A DNA stretch of 64,000 nt from an uncultured Poribacteria bacterium (GTDB taxonomy: Bacteria; Poribacteria; WGA-4E; WGA-3G). Below are positions 1,110-10,834 of the stretch, piece by piece. Both the position numbers and the translations under genes were made by a program. Numbering within the stretch: the first letter of the stretch is position 1; the number at the start of each line of letters is the position of its first letter. The notes below the pieces were generated by a model. That model did no database searches and was not told the origin of the DNA. It saw only the letters and a list, made by a program, of their open reading frames with translations. The DNA lies in the NCBI GenBank assembly GCA_951812525.1, contig OX638316.1, forward strand, positions 930,001 through 994,000, in the 5' to 3' direction.

Positions 1110-3656
1110 TTACTTCCGAATCAACATTTTCCGTGTCGCCGTGAAATCACCTGCAGTGAGTGTATAGAAATATACACCACTCGCCACGGATTCACCGAAT
1201 GCATTCCTACCATCCCAATACGCTGCACGGTTCCGGTTCTCATACACACCTGCCGGTTGATGTCCAAGTGCCAATCGTCGGACTACCTGTCCGTTCACGG
1301 CATAGATGATGATTGTGACATCTGTAGGTTTGGACAGCTGATACGGGATCCACGTCTCTGGGTTGAACGGATTCGGGTAGTTTGCTAAGAGTGTCGTTTC
1401 TTTCGGAATTAGCACTACACGGAGCTTTTCTAAGAAGAGAACACCACTGTACGCCGTTGGATCTGTCAAATCTAATTGCCGTGCTTGCGTAAGCCACAGT
1501 CGCACCTCTGCTGCAGTTAGCATCTCCAATGATTGTAAACGAAGGAGTGGCGCAGCAGCAACATCGCCGAGTGCCCCAGCAACCAAAACGAGATCTACAA
1601 TATTGACAACATTATCCCCGTTGACATCTGCCACATTCCGTCCAGTCTGACCAATGTTAGATGAAACTAATACCAAATCCTGAATATTTACAATACCATC
1701 ACCATTCACATCTCCTGTGAGTTGGGTCGATTCAGTTATCCGCGCACCTCTAACCTTTGGGGTAAAAGTCTCTCCCACACTACTAACGAGGAGGACATCA
1801 GATAATGTTAAAGTGGATGCCTTCACAGCGATAACCTCAAATGTGAGCGTGGCGAGGGTGCCGTCACCACTGCTTTCTCCGGCGGATGCAGCGTTGAGTT
1901 TCACAAGATTTCCCTCCACTTTCGGCTCCACAAAGAATGCGCCAGCAGGTAGATAATCGCCATTCGCACCTGAAACATACCCGAGCGTAGATGTATCAAA
2001 TCGTACGGTTGCTTGATAGCCTGCAACTGCCTCACCACTTGTGATGTTCAGACTGAATTCCAACAGCTGTCCAATAGTAGGGATCACTACTGAAGCAGGA
2101 TGAATCTGAACGGTTGTACCTTCGGATGTTGCAGGCGTAGACTCCGATGGATGAATTGCAGTTTCGTTAGTATTTGATGCCCCGCTTGTTGTCCCTTCAG
2201 CAATTGGGGACCACCCATCATCATTAGTACTCGATTTCAAGAAAGAATAAAAAGTACAAGTGAAACCCAAGAATTCGTATCGCACTTGATATGTAGTCCC
2301 TGGATTAAGGTTATCAAGGACGAATTCGTCCTGTTCAACCTCCACGCATTTTTCTTCCCAATCTTTTTGTGATGCTTTTCGCCGCCATTGGATGCCATAG
2401 GCTAACGATCCAGGAAAAAAAGTTGATCGGAAATCTGAAAGGCGTATCACAAGTGATGTGTCATTATCACCAGGTGTAATACCAATCTGTGTGTCTTCAG
2501 CTGATACGCTGGGTTCATCAGTTGTACTCGTTTCTGTATCGGTCGTGATTTCCCATTGACGCATCTTACCATCCTCGGTTGTGCTGAAAAGCATGCTTCC
2601 ATCTGGACTGAAAGCAACACTTCTGACAGGGGATCCATGACCGAGTGTGGCGATGACTTTCGCCATATCTGGAGCCCACAAACGCGCTGTGCCGTCTGAA
2701 CTACCGCTGGCAAGTCCTTCTCCATCAGGACTGAAGGCAATACTCAAGACGGGGGACTTATGATCAAGTGTTACTTGGATCGTACGGGTGTTAGGATCCC
2801 ATAATCGGACGGTACCGTCTGCACTCGCGCTGGCGAGTAATAACCCATCTAGGCTGAATACCACATCCAAGACACTATCCGTATGTCCTGCGAGTGTTGC
2901 TTGGAGCGTCCCTAATTCTGGATCCCATAATCGGACTGCGCCATCAGCACTTGCACTGGCGAGTAATAACCCATCTGGGCTGAAGGCGATACTCAAAACA
3001 TCACCTGTATGTCCTACGAGTGTTGCTTGGAGCGTCCCTAATTCTGGATCCCATAATCGGATAGTGTCATCGGCACTCCCACTGGCAAGTAGCATTCCAT
3101 CAGGACTGAAGGCGATACTCAAAACGCTGTTTGTGTGTCCGTGGAAAATGTGCTGAAGCAACCCGGTGTTAGGGTTCCACAACTGGACGGTGCTATCTTC
3201 GCTTGCACTCGCCAGAAACATACCGTCAGGACTAATGGCGATGTCTCTGATAGCTGCATCATGTGTGAGTGTAACTGTGGTCCGCCCCGTGGACGGATCC
3301 CACAGGTGGATGAGATTTGAAACCACAACCCCTATTAACCCGCCATTAGGAAAAAGCTCAATACTCTCGAGACTGTCTGTATGCCAGACGACGGTGGCAA
3401 CAATCCTGACGGAAAGTCCGACAACTTCGGCGGCAATCTTAACGGTATCGACGACGACATCAACAACAATACCTCCTACTTCCCCAAGAGCACCAGCAAC
3501 ATCGCCAACAGCACCTCCAACACCACCGGCGACATCTCCAATAGCATCAATGATGTCTCCAAAGAAGCCGGGACTTGCACTTTGTATGCCGCAAATCAAG
3601 CAGACTGTTAGTAACACTAACGTGATAGTCTTTCGATTTATAGTTATGTTTTTCAT
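1110..3656 (-). CDS. Secreted WD40 propeller-cohesin-dockerin protein with FlgD-like sorting domain
   Basis: I chose the ATG at 3656 (848 residues) because AGGGG precedes it and a signal peptide (KTITLVLLTVCLICG) follows directly. An upstream in-frame start would put 27 hydrophilic residues before the signal. Domain order: a low-complexity Gly/Val/Asp segment (about 30-80); seven WD40 repeats (about 88-372) with ISPDG/FSPDG and RLWDP signatures; an Fn3-like stretch (about 400-487); a cohesin-type beta domain (about 520-640); a type I dockerin pair (about 647-700) with DVNGDGIVNIQD and DVNGDNVVNIVD calcium loops; and a C-terminal FlgD/T9SS-type A-like domain (about 757-848) containing NYPNPFNPETWIPYQLS. 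Some WD40 units are nearly identical at DNA level. The protein is probably exported and surface attached. Cohesin and dockerin in one chain suggest self-assembly; this is inference. Confidence 0.88.
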   Translation of the reverse strand: MKNITINRKTITLVLLTVCLICGIQSASPGFFGDIIDAIGDVAGGVGGAVGDVAGALGEVGGIVVDVVVDTVKIAAEVVGLSVRIVATVVWHTDSLESIELFPNGGLIGVVVSNLIHLWDPSTGRTTVTLTHDAAIRDIAISPDGMFLASASEDSTVQLWNPNTGLLQHIFHGHTNSVLSIAFSPDGMLLASGSADDTIRLWDPELGTLQATLVGHTGDVLSIAFSPDGLLLASASADGAVRLWDPELGTLQATLAGHTDSVLDVVFSLDGLLLASASADGTVRLWDPNTRTIQVTLDHKSPVLSIAFSPDGEGLASGSSDGTARLWAPDMAKVIATLGHGSPVRSVAFSPDGSMLFSTTEDGKMRQWEITTDTETSTTDEPSVSAEDTQIGITPGDNDTSLVIRLSDFRSTFFPGSLAYGIQWRRKASQKDWEEKCVEVEQDEFVLDNLNPGTTYQVRYEFLGFTCTFYSFLKSSTNDDGWSPIAEGTTSGASNTNETAIHPSESTPATSEGTTVQIHPASVVIPTIGQLLEFSLNITSGEAVAGYQATVRFDTSTLGYVSGANGDYLPAGAFFVEPKVEGNLVKLNAASAGESSGDGTLATLTFEVIAVKASTLTLSDVLLVSSVGETFTPKVRGARITESTQLTGDVNGDGIVNIQDLVLVSSNIGQTGRNVADVNGDNVVNIVDLVLVAGALGDVAAAPLLRLQSLEMLTAAEVRLWLTQARQLDLTDPTAYSGVLFLEKLRVVLIPKETTLLANYPNPFNPETWIPYQLSKPTDVTIIIYAVNGQVVRRLALGHQPAGVYENRNRAAYWDGRNAFGESVASGVYFYTLTAGDFTATRKMLIRK

Positions 3657-4154
3657 CGCAGAACCCCTGGTAAACTCTCTTTCATTGTTTTTAACGACCG
3701 CGGATAGCCAGATTGACTTACCCGATGTACATCGCAAGATCCCTATGCCGAAACAGCGTTATGCTTACTCAGGATAGGAATATAACAAACCATATCAACT
3801 TTTATCTGAGTTGCCCTCTAAGAAAATATTAATCAGAAAAAACCATGTAGATAAAATACTTAAATAATAATATTATTAAATTAACATGACTTATTATTGC
3901 TTATGGTAATCCATGTGTCAACTAAAATTCGTAAAAATATGCTAAATTCGCTCATATAAACACATAACTTCACGAGCATTTTATCGTTTACTTTCAGTTT
4001 TTACGGCGTGAAAACAATTTCGGCTTGAAAATCAAATTTTAAGAAAGTAATAACAGCGGATATATGTAATTTCCGGCATATCTGCAAAAGATAGGGCGAG
4101 GCACAGGGACCTCGCCCTACAAGAACAGAGTTGTGTCTCTACAAGATTATGCTT
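3657..4154. other. AT-rich intergenic region without a gene
   Basis: About 500 bp of AT-rich sequence between two minus-strand genes. It must hold the promoter of the WD40 protein, but I could not pick a convincing -35/-10 pair. The only clear structure is the hairpin at 4093-4118. Confidence 0.6.
4093..4118. repeat. Palindromic repeat, 9-bp stem
   Basis: AGGGCGAGG (4093-4101) and CCTCGCCCT (4110-4118) form a perfect 9-bp stem with an 8-nt loop. The same stem recurs at 44548-44572. It lies downstream of the oxidoreductase ending at 4155 and could act as a terminator, though no clean T-tract follows. Confidence 0.7.
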
Positions 4155-5216
4155 CTACAACGGCAGCGAAATCGGTGCGCCAATTTGGGAAGAACGATAC
4201 GTCGCTTCTGCCAACTCAATACCGTCTCTTCCCATACGTCCGTGGGTTGTCGGCTCTGCTTCACCGGCAATGCACTGGAGCCAATGATTGATACTCGTGC
4301 CCTTCGCCGCCACTCCCCAATACCGCTGTTGACGCCGCTCCTCTGGCATATTGCGATAGGTGCCGTCGTCTGGTACTGGAACCGTGAATTCTTCCGCCTC
4401 TGCCATATCGTGGGTTTTCCAGCGGAGCCCGTGGCGAATCAGCGTCGCCGAACCTTTACTCGTGACCAGACCGTTGCCACTGTTCCCGATCTCAGCAGCC
4501 CAACTCTTAATCATCATTGCAACACCACCGTTTTTAAAATGCACGGTCAGTACGGCGTTGTTTTCAACGGCTTCATCAGCGGATGGATAGGTGCCACCAA
4601 GTGGGACGTGACTTGTGAATCCGTAGACGGTGGAGGCGGGACCGTATAGCCACAGCCAGAGATCAAGATTGTGAATCGCCTGTTCCACCAACATACCGCC
4701 CGATTCCGCTTTCACAAAGAGCCACGGATGCCGTTCCGGTGAGAACCAACCGACCTGATTAGAGTACGCCATCTGTAGCGTACCGAGTGTACCATCGTCT
4801 AACAGTGATTTTAACTTCGCGTACCCCGGATCAAACCGCATCATATAAGCGACCATCAGAAGCACATCCGCATTTTCAGCGGCGGCAATCATTTCGTCCC
4901 CCTCTGCAACGCTGCAACACATCGGTTTTTCCATCAAGATGTGTTTGCCAGCAGCGGCAGCTGCACGGGTAATTTCAAGGTGTGGACGTGGGTGAGCACA
5001 GACATCAACGGCATCTATATCCTGTCTGTCGAGGAGGACGCGGTAATCTGTGTAGGCATCCGCACCAAACAGGTCAGCTTGTTCGTTCGCAGATGCTTCG
5101 TTGATGTCGGCAATTGCGACGATATCTGCGCGTCGTGTCGGTTCTTGGTAATAGGGCGCATGGAGGTTGCGGAAGATACCACCACATCCGATAATACCAA
5201 CTCTGATTCTGTCCAT
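4155..5216 (-). CDS. Gfo/Idh/MocA family oxidoreductase
   Basis: 353 residues, a usual length for this NAD(P)-dependent sugar or inositol dehydrogenase family. The N-terminus VGIIGCGGIFRNLHAP is the Rossmann GxGxxG fingerprint, and LMEKPMCC holds the family EKP motif whose Lys contacts substrate and cofactor. The rest is the alpha/beta substrate domain. AAGGAG sits about 7 nt before the ATG. It is the third gene of a minus-strand operon after another Gfo/Idh/MocA protein and the selenoprotein. The substrate cannot be read from sequence. Confidence 0.9.
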   Translation of the reverse strand: MDRIRVGIIGCGGIFRNLHAPYYQEPTRRADIVAIADINEASANEQADLFGADAYTDYRVLLDRQDIDAVDVCAHPRPHLEITRAAAAAGKHILMEKPMCCSVAEGDEMIAAAENADVLLMVAYMMRFDPGYAKLKSLLDDGTLGTLQMAYSNQVGWFSPERHPWLFVKAESGGMLVEQAIHNLDLWLWLYGPASTVYGFTSHVPLGGTYPSADEAVENNAVLTVHFKNGGVAMMIKSWAAEIGNSGNGLVTSKGSATLIRHGLRWKTHDMAEAEEFTVPVPDDGTYRNMPEERRQQRYWGVAAKGTSINHWLQCIAGEAEPTTHGRMGRDGIELAEATYRSSQIGAPISLPL

Positions 5217-5258
5217 AGAATTCTCCTTAATAAGATCGACGAAAATCGGTTCTTAATA

Positions 5259-5274
5259 GGGCGATTTATCGCCC
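5259..5274 (-). terminator. Short hairpin over the selenoprotein stop codon
   Basis: GGGCGA and TCGCCC form a 6-bp stem with a TTTA loop, overlapping the selenoprotein stop codon (5268-5266). It could attenuate or protect the mRNA between the two genes. There is no T-tract. Confidence 0.35.
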
Positions 5275-6012
5275 GTTCCTAACATCGAACATATCCACTA
5301 CTTTTAGGATAGGCGGGACTTTCGTATCCTCTAAGAGTGCGAGTGTCTCGGCGATGATTGCGTGCTGCAATTCCGGATTGTTCGGTTCACCAAGCGGATG
5401 TCCAAAACCATACGGTACTGCTAAGGCGCGCGGCGGTTTTACCTTCTTAGTCATACTTTCAATAAGGGTAATAGAAACCGTGGAAATCCCCGTCTCTTCA
5501 ACAGCACGTTGTATCAGTCCTACAGACTGATTGCACATCGGTCAGACAGGCGTTAAGAAAGCAACATCCACACCATCAGCTTTAAGCATCCGTCCAACCT
5601 CAGGTGCGGATTGCGTAATGAGGGCGTGCGGTTTTGTAATGGATCCCATAAAACTAAAGTGCCTACGGTTTAGCGATCCGATTTTACCTTCCGTCTCCAA
5701 CTCTCTGAATCTATCAAGTGGAAACGCGAGGTTCGCATCAATATCAATGCCGCGTTTATCGTAAGCCGCACTTTTATGTCCGTCTTTTAGTTCTTGTGTC
5801 TGAATTGAATTTGGAATCTCGCGGTACGAACAATCTCCGTTCCCAAAAGGGTTCTGCCCATGGAGAAAAAAACCCGCAGTTGTAATAAGAGCGACTTTAC
5901 ATTCATTCAACGGCAAGCGGAGCGGTGTATTAGGCGACGTTTTATAACGCTCACCGCGATACAGGTTCATAAAGAATCGAGATAGACGATCAAACTTCCA
6001 CAAAGATGCCAT
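5266..6012 (-). CDS. GrdB/PrdB-family selenoprotein with in-frame UGA (Sec157)
   Basis: Two ORFs in one frame are separated only by TGA at 5544-5542 and one CCG codon. Read through, the gene gives 248 residues with the junction TPV-U-PMCNQSVGL. UxxC at the end of a beta strand is the redox motif of the glycine/sarcosine/betaine/D-proline reductase selenoprotein B family. Family-like sequence lies on both sides: FMNLYRGERYK and FSFMGSITKPHAL before, PRALAVPYGFGHPLGEPN after. A SECIS-like hairpin follows the UGA. I prefer ATG 6012 (MASLWKFDRLSRFF), with GAGG a few nt upstream, over 6039, which overlaps the previous gene. At 248 residues it is shorter than the ~430-residue clostridial GrdB and resembles short PrdB-like members. 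The substrate is unknown. An ordinary annotation would split it into two false genes. Confidence 0.88.
5506..5538 (-). promoter_or_regulatory. Predicted bacterial SECIS element
   Basis: On the mRNA, nucleotides 11-17 after the UGA (AUCAGUC) pair perfectly with 23-29 (GACUGAU), leaving the 5-nt loop UGUAG. A 3x3 internal loop (GCA/ACA) leads to a 4-bp lower stem (AUGU with ACGU, one U-G pair). The loop G is 19 nt after the UGA, matching the known bSECIS rule of a G among the first two loop bases at about 16-37 nt. Folding was done by eye. Confidence 0.82.
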
Positions 6013-6025
6013 AGAGACCTCGGTA

Positions 6026-7051
6026 TTAGCCGTTCGCAAAGATAAGTCGTTTCCTATTCTGACAGGGAAGCTGTATTGTCTGCCCGGTTATGCCGCTTTC
6101 GATAGTCGCGAAACCAATTTCATTGACAGCAGTATAATCATCATGGGCACAATCGGGAAGCGGTCCGCCATCCAAATAATCCGTAATCTGTTTATACGCG
6201 ATATTGAAGGGGCCGGCATTTTGAGGGAGATCCAGCGTGTCGTTATCAATCAACTCCCCTTCCTTATAGACGGTTGTGCTGCTATAGAATCCTGTCTGAA
6301 CGCTACCCTCGCTGCCAAGTACATCAACGGAAAATCCGCCTCGCGCCCCATGGTTCCCGACATGGAAACCCATAACGCCGCTCTCATATTGAATCGTCGA
6401 ACCGACAATCGCCGGTTCAGGTTCATAAGGCTCCGGCACATCTCCGCCACCCGCAACGAACCCAGTGACTGAAACCGGATCATAACCAGCGAACTGGCAG
6501 ATCATATCCGTCGTGTGAATCGCAAAGGAGAGCACACCACCACCACAATATCCGATGACAGTTTGCACCTCACCGATAAGACCGTCTTTGATAAGCGACT
6601 GGAGGCGGATTAGATGCGGTCCCCAGTGCCGTGTATAGTCCACAACGATAGGGATGCCTTTTGCGTCAGCACCTGCTGTCATGGTGTCAACCTCTTCGAG
6701 GGAACATCCGGCGGGTTTTTCGAGGAAAATGGCTTTGATGTCTGCCTTTAAGACGTTCTGCATCACCTTAAAATGGTGCGGTCCACGGACACAGACAGCA
6801 ACGATGTCCAAATCCTCACTTTCAAGCATCTGTGTATCTGTTTCGTAGTAGTTTATGGAATTATCTGGGAAGGCGGGTCCCCAAACTTGTTGGAATTCTT
6901 CTTGACGTTCCGCAGACATATCTGCAACCGCGACCAATTCGGTTGTCTCGCAAAAACGGATACCGCCTGTATGGCAATAAGGATAAGGATCGTCAGGTGT
7001 TGAATAACGGGAGGCGATGTTGCCTAACCCAATGATACCGACACGATACAT
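6026..7051 (-). CDS. Gfo/Idh/MocA family oxidoreductase
   Basis: 341 residues from ATG 7051 (MYRVGIIGLGNIASRYS), preceded by AGAGGAAA. An upstream in-frame start would add seven residues that overlap this SD. GxGxxA dinucleotide fingerprint at the N-terminus; FLEKPAGCS carries the EKP motif. It is the first gene of the minus-strand operon: the selenoprotein starts 13 nt after its stop and a second oxidoreductase follows. Bracketing a Sec redox protein with two dehydrogenases suggests a short catabolic or detoxifying pathway; the substrate is unknown. Confidence 0.9.
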   Translation of the reverse strand: MYRVGIIGLGNIASRYSTPDDPYPYCHTGGIRFCETTELVAVADMSAERQEEFQQVWGPAFPDNSINYYETDTQMLESEDLDIVAVCVRGPHHFKVMQNVLKADIKAIFLEKPAGCSLEEVDTMTAGADAKGIPIVVDYTRHWGPHLIRLQSLIKDGLIGEVQTVIGYCGGGVLSFAIHTTDMICQFAGYDPVSVTGFVAGGGDVPEPYEPEPAIVGSTIQYESGVMGFHVGNHGARGGFSVDVLGSEGSVQTGFYSSTTVYKEGELIDNDTLDLPQNAGPFNIAYKQITDYLDGGPLPDCAHDDYTAVNEIGFATIESGITGQTIQLPCQNRKRLIFANG

Positions 7052-7094
7052 TGAAATTTCCTCTTTTAGCATTTTTGGTGTGAATATTATTATA

Positions 7095-7123: not shown

Positions 7124-7225
7124 GAGGTTTATCGTATCGGTTGAATTTACACGGGAACTATTGTAAAATAGGTGATAGAGACTTATTGGATAAGCGCGTT
7201 TTCAAAGCCCATCAACCGAGGAATA

Positions 7226-10200
7226 ATGACATATCCGATGCGATTTTCAATATCAATTACCCTTATTCTCTGGATTGTTACCAGCATTGCGTCCGCCGAT
7301 TCATGGCTCTGTGGAACACCACTTTTGCAACAACACTTTGGGCAACACCCTCCCGAAGAAGTTGCTGCTGCCCCCGCCGCACCCGTTCAAATCGGACAGA
7401 CAGAACGCTTTTTTATTCACATTCCAGAGGCAGAGGTAACAGCCACCTGTATCGCCAAAAGTGACCACCTCTACGTCTACATCGAAAACTCGGTGCGCCA
7501 CTTATTCACGGATGCCGAAGCCATTGCAATCGCCAGGGAATTTGACACACGCATCTATCCACGCGTTCGAGAGTGGATGGGTAGTGAATGGAAGCCTGGA
7601 CTTGACAGGGACAACCGTATAACTTTGTTGATGCACGATGTCGGTATGAACAATTCTGGAGAGGACTACGGTGGTTACTTCTCGCCTGCGGATCAGATAC
7701 CTACAGCACCGAACAGCAATCGTCGGGAAATGCTCTATATGGACATTTACCAGTTTAGAGAACGCTCTCGACACACTTTCCACAGCAGCCTTGCCCATGA
7801 ATTCGCGCACCTCGTTAACTGGTTTCAGAACGGTGGAACCACAGATCAACGATGGTTAGAGGAAGGCACGGCATCCTTCGTGGAATGGGGCGTTTATGGA
7901 ACCGTACACACTATTTTTGTTGACGGCTATCTGACAAATCCAGGTGTTTCGCTTGCTTATGCAAACACACGGGAGGTATACTACGGTGCTGCTTTCATGC
8001 TCATGCTCTATCTCTACGAACAGTATGGTGGACGAGAACTCATCCGTGGTATTGTCGGATCGGACGCACTGGGTGAACAGGCGATCAATAAGGCTTTGGC
8101 AGACGATGGGAAAAGCGTCCGTTTTCCTGAAGTTTTTCTGAATTGGGGACTTGCGAATTGGGTCAACACACAGGCGCGAAACAGACAACTCGGTTACGCC
8201 CACCTCCAGAACCGAAAGGTAAACGCCGCAGTACCGCGTCTCTCCAATTACCCCAACGAGGCGAACAATATCCCTATTGACCAATGGGGGACATATTATG
8301 CTGTTTTTCGGAATCTGCCAGAAACCTTGGACCTGTCGGTAATCGGTGCTGATGCTGGCAACCTTTATGCAACAACGCTTTACCTACCGCCTAATGGACA
8401 ACCCATTGTTGCACCTATTCCATTCGATACCGAGAATAGAGGATACATTCGACGAGAAGGACTGCAGCGCGGCGGTGAAATCGTGATGATGGTAACTGCA
8501 GATGCACCGCAGACGTTTCGTTATGTCGCTGCAGCACCTGCCGCTAACAACGTTGAAAGGGCAATCGGTCCGGCACGCTTGCACATATCAAATGCTGTAC
8601 CCGATTCCGTAACCAACGCCCTCAGAAATCAGACCCAACCAAGTCCACTACCGGCAAATCTCAGGCGGAAAACGTATCTTGAACCGATGACGCAGATCCA
8701 TCTCGCAAGCAATTATACTGACGTTGAGATCGGGGGAGTAGACGGAAATTACCTTTACGCCGCAAGCCATTGGGGACTTGAGATTTTTACGCTGGCTGAA
8801 CCGACAAAACCTGCGCGCGTTGGTGAAATCGCTACGCCAGGACGGGCGCAAGCTGTCGCTGTTGATGGCGAATCCGCTTATATCGCCGACGGTGCAGGCG
8901 GTGTACACGTCATTGACATCACTGATCCAACCAATCCGAGTATCCTGAAAACGATTGGCACCCTTACGGATGCGCGTCGAGTTCATGTCGCCGATGGAAA
9001 TCTGTATGTACTTGATAAGGATCGCGGGATGCTCGTTTTCAATCTCCGCGATGTTCACAACGCCCGAGTTCCGCAACCGCGACGTTTCTTTCGTACCGCA
9101 GGTAGACCGCTCAATATTTCCATCCACGACGATACCGTCTACTTGAGCGACGACAGACATGGACTTATTATACTCGATCCAAGTCCATTCGGTAATTTTG
9201 TTGTGCGCAGTGTTGTTCCTATTCTCGCCGCTGCTTATGAGATTGTTGACACAAGAAACGGAACCTACGCTTACGTGGCTTCTGGTAATCTTATAGTGGT
9301 TGATGTGACAGATATTCACAATCCCGAAATACGTTTTCGCTTAGATACGCCAGGGCTCACAACCGGCATCCAATTCCGTAACGACACCATCTACCTGACG
9401 GACCAACAGGCAGGACTTCACATTATCAACGCGCGGAATCCACAACAGCCGCAACGAATTTCCTCACAACCTACGTTCGGTAATGCGATTAATATCGCCC
9501 TCCGAGATACAACGGCTTATATCGCCGACGGAAAAGGCGGCATTCAGACAATTGATGTAAGCGAAGCGAAATCGCCGAAGTGGTTACACCGGTATGCACT
9601 TAACGGCACGGCTCATGGGCTTGATGTTGTCGAAACAGCAGACGGTGGACGCACCATCTACATTGCGAATGGTGTAGGCGGGTTAAAGACCCTTGAATTT
9701 ACGAACCCTTACGACGGGGTCTTAACAAAAAACCTGTCGCTCCCGGCGAACGCTGACACTTCCAACAGTTCATTCGAAGCAACTCGCATCACCAAAATTC
9801 GTGTTCGGGATAGATACGGCTTCGTTGGTGCTGAGACCGGCATGTTTGTCGTTGATCTCGAAGCGAATACAATCCTAACACATATTCCGACAGCGGCATC
9901 CGTTTCGGACATTGCTTTGCATGAGGGTTACACCTACCTCTGTGCAGAATCCTTGATTGTCGTTGATAGCCGAGCCCCGCAGCAGAGCAGAATCGTATCC
10001 CAACGAAATATGCGCGGTAGTGCCTATCGCATCGTGATCGACCCAGCTTCGCCTACACACACCTATGTCGCCGCCCTTGAAGGCGGACTACATATCTTTG
10101 ACATCACAGATCCAGCAATGCCACGTCCTATTTCAAATTACCTCACACAGGGCAATGCAACAGGTGTTGCGCTTACGGCAAAACGCGCTTACCTGTTAGA

Positions 10201-10834
10201 TAGCGGTGTCGGTGTTGCTGCACTTGATGTAACCCAACCAAACAAACCCAGATTGGACGGTATATATAGAGACGATGCCGTCCTGATAGACGTACAAGCC
10301 AGTAGTAACCATCTCTATTTACTTGATAGTGAAAGCGTTCAGGTGATTGACACACGCACACTAACAACGGCTTCATCTCTTCTTTACAGAAGTCGGGAAC
10401 TCCAGTTTCCGTCTGAATTAAAGTTAACAAACGGTGTCCTCTATATCACCGACCTGTATCAACTCCGTGCTTTCCGTGTGCATCCCGAAGGCCGCTCGCT
10501 TGCTGTGGAAGAACTGACACCATCCGAATGGAAACCGAACTCACTTAAGCCAACGTTGGTCAATCAGCTAAGCCAAAATTTCCCGAACCCATTTAATCCA
10601 GAGACGTGGATCCCGTATCAACTCGCCTCAGATGCGAACGTAGTCCTCCATATCTACGATACCCAAGGGAGACGTATCTATTCCCGGACCCTTGGATATC
10701 AAAAGGCAGGTTCACACACCGCCTACTGGAATGGTCGTAATACTACCGGTGAACCTGTCGCGAGCGGGATATATTTTTATTCTCTTGAAACTGGTACTTT
10801 TCATGCAACCCGCAAAATGCTCATCCAGCGATGA
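7226..10834 (+). CDS. Secreted M30-like zinc metalloprotease with LVIVD repeats and sorting domain
   Basis: I chose ATG 7226 (1202 residues) because GAGG sits 5 nt before it and a signal peptide (SISITLILWIVTSIASA) follows; an upstream in-frame start lacks both. The catalytic region is near residues 60-330: HEFAH at 191-195 is the HExxH zinc site, followed by NWFQ and WLEEGTASFVEW, which supplies the likely third Glu ligand. This is the gluzincin layout seen in M30-like peptidases. Residues about 480-1100 form a beta-propeller of LVIVD-type repeats (YIADGAGGVHVIDITDP and variants). The last ~90 residues are a FlgD-like sorting domain with NFPNPFNPETWIPYQL, ending TRKMLIQR. Probably exported and anchored at the surface; protein substrate unknown. 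Confidence 0.88.
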   Translation: MTYPMRFSISITLILWIVTSIASADSWLCGTPLLQQHFGQHPPEEVAAAPAAPVQIGQTERFFIHIPEAEVTATCIAKSDHLYVYIENSVRHLFTDAEAIAIAREFDTRIYPRVREWMGSEWKPGLDRDNRITLLMHDVGMNNSGEDYGGYFSPADQIPTAPNSNRREMLYMDIYQFRERSRHTFHSSLAHEFAHLVNWFQNGGTTDQRWLEEGTASFVEWGVYGTVHTIFVDGYLTNPGVSLAYANTREVYYGAAFMLMLYLYEQYGGRELIRGIVGSDALGEQAINKALADDGKSVRFPEVFLNWGLANWVNTQARNRQLGYAHLQNRKVNAAVPRLSNYPNEANNIPIDQWGTYYAVFRNLPETLDLSVIGADAGNLYATTLYLPPNGQPIVAPIPFDTENRGYIRREGLQRGGEIVMMVTADAPQTFRYVAAAPAANNVERAIGPARLHISNAVPDSVTNALRNQTQPSPLPANLRRKTYLEPMTQIHLASNYTDVEIGGVDGNYLYAASHWGLEIFTLAEPTKPARVGEIATPGRAQAVAVDGESAYIADGAGGVHVIDITDPTNPSILKTIGTLTDARRVHVADGNLYVLDKDRGMLVFNLRDVHNARVPQPRRFFRTAGRPLNISIHDDTVYLSDDRHGLIILDPSPFGNFVVRSVVPILAAAYEIVDTRNGTYAYVASGNLIVVDVTDIHNPEIRFRLDTPGLTTGIQFRNDTIYLTDQQAGLHIINARNPQQPQRISSQPTFGNAINIALRDTTAYIADGKGGIQTIDVSEAKSPKWLHRYALNGTAHGLDVVETADGGRTIYIANGVGGLKTLEFTNPYDGVLTKNLSLPANADTSNSSFEATRITKIRVRDRYGFVGAETGMFVVDLEANTILTHIPTAASVSDIALHEGYTYLCAESLIVVDSRAPQQSRIVSQRNMRGSAYRIVIDPASPTHTYVAALEGGLHIFDITDPAMPRPISNYLTQGNATGVALTAKRAYLLDSGVGVAALDVTQPNKPRLDGIYRDDAVLIDVQASSNHLYLLDSESVQVIDTRTLTTASSLLYRSRELQFPSELKLTNGVLYITDLYQLRAFRVHPEGRSLAVEELTPSEWKPNSLKPTLVNQLSQNFPNPFNPETWIPYQLASDANVVLHIYDTQGRRIYSRTLGYQKAGSHTAYWNGRNTTGEPVASGIYFYSLETGTFHATRKMLIQR

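Follow-up and report, generated by a model that had tools for sequence, protein, structure and literature searches.

The locus and its reading frame

The window, a 64,000-nucleotide stretch of contig OX638316.1 (assembly GCA_951812525.1, positions 930,001 to 994,000) from an uncultured Poribacteria bacterium, carries on its minus strand a PrdB-like gene that is interrupted by one in-frame UGA and lies between two Gfo/Idh/MocA-family oxidoreductase genes on the same strand. The features of the locus, in window coordinates, are:

4155..5216, minus strand: downstream Gfo/Idh/MocA-family oxidoreductase (PF01408, E 4.2e-30)
5266..6012, minus strand: predicted PrdB-like selenoprotein gene, 248 aa (ATG at 6012, TAA at 5268-5266; matches to TIGR04483 and PF07355)
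5513..5531, minus strand: SECIS-like hairpin, stem 5531-5525 with 5519-5513, loop 5524-5520 (UGUAG), from folding and covariation
5533..5535, minus strand: codon of Cys160, second residue of the UxxC motif, invariant in two alignments
5544-5542, minus strand: in-frame UGA, the putative Sec157 (U157), first residue of UxxC; TGA in 67 of 67 phylum homologues spanning the site
6026..7072, minus strand: upstream Gfo/Idh/MocA-family oxidoreductase (PF01408, E 5.8e-15), separated by 13 nt from the start codon of the PrdB-like gene

Standard gene calling divides the gene into two ORFs, 6039/6012-5542 and 5538-5266. The preliminary description had treated these as adjacent ORFs of one frame parted by TGA and CCG, and the ORF coordinates bear this out: 5542-6039 and 5266-5538, both on the minus strand, share a frame and are separated by TGA (5544-5542) and CCG (5541-5539). 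The frame running from the ATG at 6012 to the TAA at 5268-5266 is interrupted by the single TGA at 5544-5542. The methionine start at 6012 is common to homologues, and a Shine-Dalgarno-like GAGG lies a few bases 5′ of it. Readthrough gives a 248-aa product in which the UGA is codon 157 and U157 and C160 lie within PVUPMCNQSVGL, in agreement with the UxxC motif that had been proposed for the joined product.

Read on the plus strand, 5266-6012 contains stops, and the gene is assigned to the minus strand. Among the TGA-joined frames with a nearby Cys listed for the window, no other has a comparable length or motif. Beyond the immediate locus, two long proteins (1110-3737, minus strand, and 7172-10834, plus strand) end in similar C-terminal tails, 'NYPNPFNPETWIPYQL...RKMLI', that resemble a secretion-sorting domain.

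Family placement and the missing partner subunit

The best NCBIfam match of the product is the PrdB model TIGR04483 (E 1.9e-46), which ranks ahead of the GrdB-type models, and its score of 158.4 bits lies below the equivalog cut-off of 300 bits for PrdB. In Pfam, the protein is matched by PF07355 (GRDB, E 2.9e-10) over a stretch that ends just before the Sec. Significant profile matches and a UxxC at the family position place it in the GrdB/PrdB family, while the match to GrdB begins at about profile position 260-276, so that the full-length GrdB model of ~430 residues is not matched. On these profile and motif grounds, the protein is best classed as PrdB-like within the GrdB/PrdB family, nearer PrdB than GrdB.

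D-proline reductase also requires the pyruvoyl protein PrdA, which PF09338 recognizes. Across 85 phylum genomes, profile searches recover neither PrdA (TIGR04480) nor any PF09338 protein (PrdA/GrdE-type). Because the TIGR04480 and PF09338 searches initially lacked a positive control, the absence was checked on two control plasmids, in both of which the PF09338 search recovers PrdA. No PrdA pyruvoyl proprotein is thus found in this genome, which argues against D-proline as the substrate. The label "GrdB/PrdB-like" in the preliminary description accordingly stands as a statement of family, on the profile matches, and does not extend to an enzyme activity for which the PrdA partner is not found.

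A genuine D-proline reductase subunit, converting D-proline to 5-aminovalerate together with a PrdA too diverged for detection, would fit the TIGR04483 match as the best of the family, a Sec position that is the same as in Terrisporobacter PrdB, and the PrdB label given to similar marine sequences in the literature (PMC1088965, PMC2398784). It is nevertheless very unlikely, given a score of 158 against a cut-off of 300, the lack of a PrdA or PF09338 protein across the 85 genomes under a PF09338 search that is positive on the control plasmids, neighbours that are Gfo/Idh oxidoreductases rather than prdA and prdC, and the motif PVUPMCNQ here versus AGUGTCHR.

Conservation of the UGA codon and the selenocysteine machinery

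The genome, a single contig of 5.06 Mb, contains selA, selB, selD, and tRNA-Sec, so the objection that the machinery might be missing falls away. SelB is full-length and scores over its cut-off, and the tRNA-Sec, with anticodon TCA, directly adjoins selB. Across the phylum, selA is found in 72 of the 85 genomes. The selD gene (3914052-3914975, plus strand) has an in-frame TGA of its own at the Sec site (KCAGUASK), from which the SelD of this genome is probably a selenoprotein too.

Homologues of the PrdB-like protein occur in 68 of the 85 phylum genomes, and those close relatives that bear a name belong to Candidatus Poribacteria, with 68-85% protein identity. All 67 of the phylum homologues that span the site have TGA there, never TAA or TAG. 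The codon is kept in homologues with as little as 42-45% identity, where the motif becomes PAUGLCHR or PAUGICHQ in three genomes. Outside the phylum, a Myxococcota homologue has TGA at the site, and four Polynucleobacter homologues have Cys (TGC or TGT) at the same position. The annotated Terrisporobacter PrdB has TGA at codon 151, and the Enterococcus PrdB has a Cys codon at 151, both of which align with U157. The comparison with homologues that had been proposed as a check thus returns Sec or Cys at this position. An extra stop (a second TGA or TAA) lies within the matched stretch of the homologues G030, G046, G036, G073, G049, and G060 and is probably the normal gene end.

Termination at the UGA would leave a 156-residue protein, with the remainder either the relic of a pseudogene or a short gene of its own, a reading suited to the two ORFs seen under the standard code and to the ATG shortly 3′ of the UGA that the second ORF possesses. 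However, frame and sequence downstream of the UGA are conserved phylum-wide, and relatives differ there mainly at third codon positions, which indicates that translation continues in frame through the second half. In addition, the similarity to PrdB takes in C160 and the C-terminal half, relatives have Cys in place of the UGA, and neither TAA nor TAG occurs at the site in 67 genomes; a true stop is therefore highly improbable. An error of sequencing or assembly that turned TGC or TGT (Cys) into TGA would agree with the Cys found in distant relatives, but the same TGA recurs in 67 genomes that were assembled separately, as well as in the Myxococcota relative, and its probability is negligible. 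The preliminary description had named such an error as grounds for rejection; recurrence of the codon in dozens of independent genomes disposes of it, and by these comparisons both a sequencing error and a pseudogene appear excluded. Equally negligible is decoding of the UGA as another amino acid (e.g., Trp or Cys) through an altered code or a suppressor, since among the UGAs of the window with a nearby Cys only that at codon 157 yields a convincing joined product, the genome has the complete Sec machinery, and Sec/Cys exchange at the site is the pattern of the family.

A SECIS-like hairpin downstream of the UGA

A hairpin with seven perfect pairs, the loop UGUAG, and a G at the second loop position begins 10 nt 3′ of the UGA, as had been described from the sequence and as folding confirms. 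It has the layout of a bacterial SECIS element, that is, a conserved stem-loop that closely follows the UGA and has a G within the first two loop positions. For this sequence alone the fold is moderately unusual (z = -2.5): 144 of 5000 synonymous recodings fold at least as stably, and a comparable stem occurs at 52 of the 2265 TGA triplets of the window.

The relatives add covariation to the fold. Over 33 distinct sequences, the stem is paired in 96.5% of cells and three of its seven pairs are altered on both sides, in statistics that ignore kinship, while no slid control structure has a pair altered on both sides. The combination of Gln CAA with Leu CTG, which would break pair 18-28, is never seen (Fisher p = 0.002, again ignoring kinship). 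Some stem pairs are lost in certain relatives; in the Myxococcota member and in L096, a poribacterial homologue that is more distant, most of the stem is retained with other bases. By itself the hairpin is suggestive, and the selenoprotein case is carried by the comparative data, namely TGA conservation and stem covariation.

Selenocysteine, which the preliminary description had offered as the simplest reading of the UGA, is supported by the machinery, by the Sec or Cys of homologues, by the TGA of 67 genomes, and by the covarying stem. From the sequence evidence, the gene almost certainly encodes a single selenoprotein of 248 aa, with Sec at UGA codon 157, that belongs to the PrdB branch within the GrdB/PrdB family. 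In this cell, SelB would deliver Sec-tRNA to that codon, assisted by the hairpin just 3′ of it.

Predicted structure, neighbouring genes, and proposed chemistry

The AlphaFold model of the protein is confident (pLDDT 86.5) and places U157 and C160 where a helix (158-172) begins after a β strand (150-154). Such a site is a common one for a reactive redox pair. No solved relative was found by sequence, and a fold search of the model against the PDB returned no significant match. The UxxC would be a candidate redox-active pair in which the U157 selenolate acts as the nucleophile on the substrate and C160 as the resolving thiol; the selenenylsulfide formed between them would be reopened by a cellular reductant.

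Most genomes of the same bacterial family preserve this gene order: at its 57 loci, Gfo/Idh orthologues with about 80% identity or more lie upstream in about 50 cases and downstream in 54. The 11 phylum loci beyond this bacterial family all lack Gfo/Idh neighbours. Within 4155-7072 (minus strand), the selenoprotein is less conserved than the genes beside it, with about 60-85% identity versus about 80-97% for the neighbours.

The protein would probably act as a stand-alone reductase without a PrdA-type pyruvoyl subunit, in an operon with the two Gfo/Idh/MocA dehydrogenases. On the basis of this operon, a carbohydrate- or polyol-linked substrate class, rather than D-proline, is tentatively proposed; the absence of Gfo/Idh neighbours at 11 of 11 loci outside the bacterial family weakens this proposal. 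Speculatively, the poribacterial PrdB-like proteins as a group might be stand-alone and free of a pyruvoyl subunit, act on a carbohydrate-linked substrate of the flanking Gfo/Idh/MocA dehydrogenases, and have a reductase activity new to the family.

Comparison with known systems

The PrdB proteins of Terrisporobacter and Enterococcus are close to the present protein in length (241 versus 248 aa), share 35-36% identity with it, and carry Sec or Cys at the site that corresponds to U157. It differs from PrdB as defined by TIGR04483 in scoring under the equivalog cut-off, in the context of its motif, and in a locus without prdA or prdC. GrdB, the selenoprotein B of glycine/sarcosine/betaine reductase (PF07355), has a homologous C-terminal part with UxxC in the same relative place. 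In contrast, the GrdB models span about 431-435 positions, of which only the last third is matched here, and no GrdE-type subunit (PF09338) is found in the 85 phylum genomes.

Sec-containing PrdB-type proteins with UxxC are well represented in ocean DNA, with 42 sequences in a 2005 survey (PMC1088965) and 235 Sec and 110 Cys forms in a 2008 survey (PMC2398784). In the sea they are some of the most abundant selenoproteins, and the surveys describe them as proline reductase (PMC1088965, PMC2398784). Enrichment of selA and selB has been reported in sponge symbionts (PMC5649159). Among the papers searched, none names a poribacterial selenoprotein, and a search for PrdB without PrdA found nothing relevant. 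What is added over the surveys is the assignment to Poribacteria, phylum-wide conservation of the Sec, the operon, and a test for the absence of PrdA; on this sequence evidence, Poribacteria would gain a firm selenoprotein, and a gene split by standard calling would be corrected to one.

The PrdB-type selenoproteins in the Sargasso Sea and Global Ocean Sampling sets (PMC1088965, PMC2398784) share with the present protein the UxxC motif, PF07355, and a Sec form with Cys homologues, a likeness drawn from their published description. Those are metagenome sequences, whereas the present comparison uses complete genomes. The protein belongs to a kind known from ocean DNA and occurs here in a bacterial group associated with sponges, where the customary partner subunit is not found. 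Because a Sec-containing member extends through this phylum with no PrdA-type subunit detected in 85 genomes, the comparison suggests that many marine sequences labelled proline reductase may have another activity.
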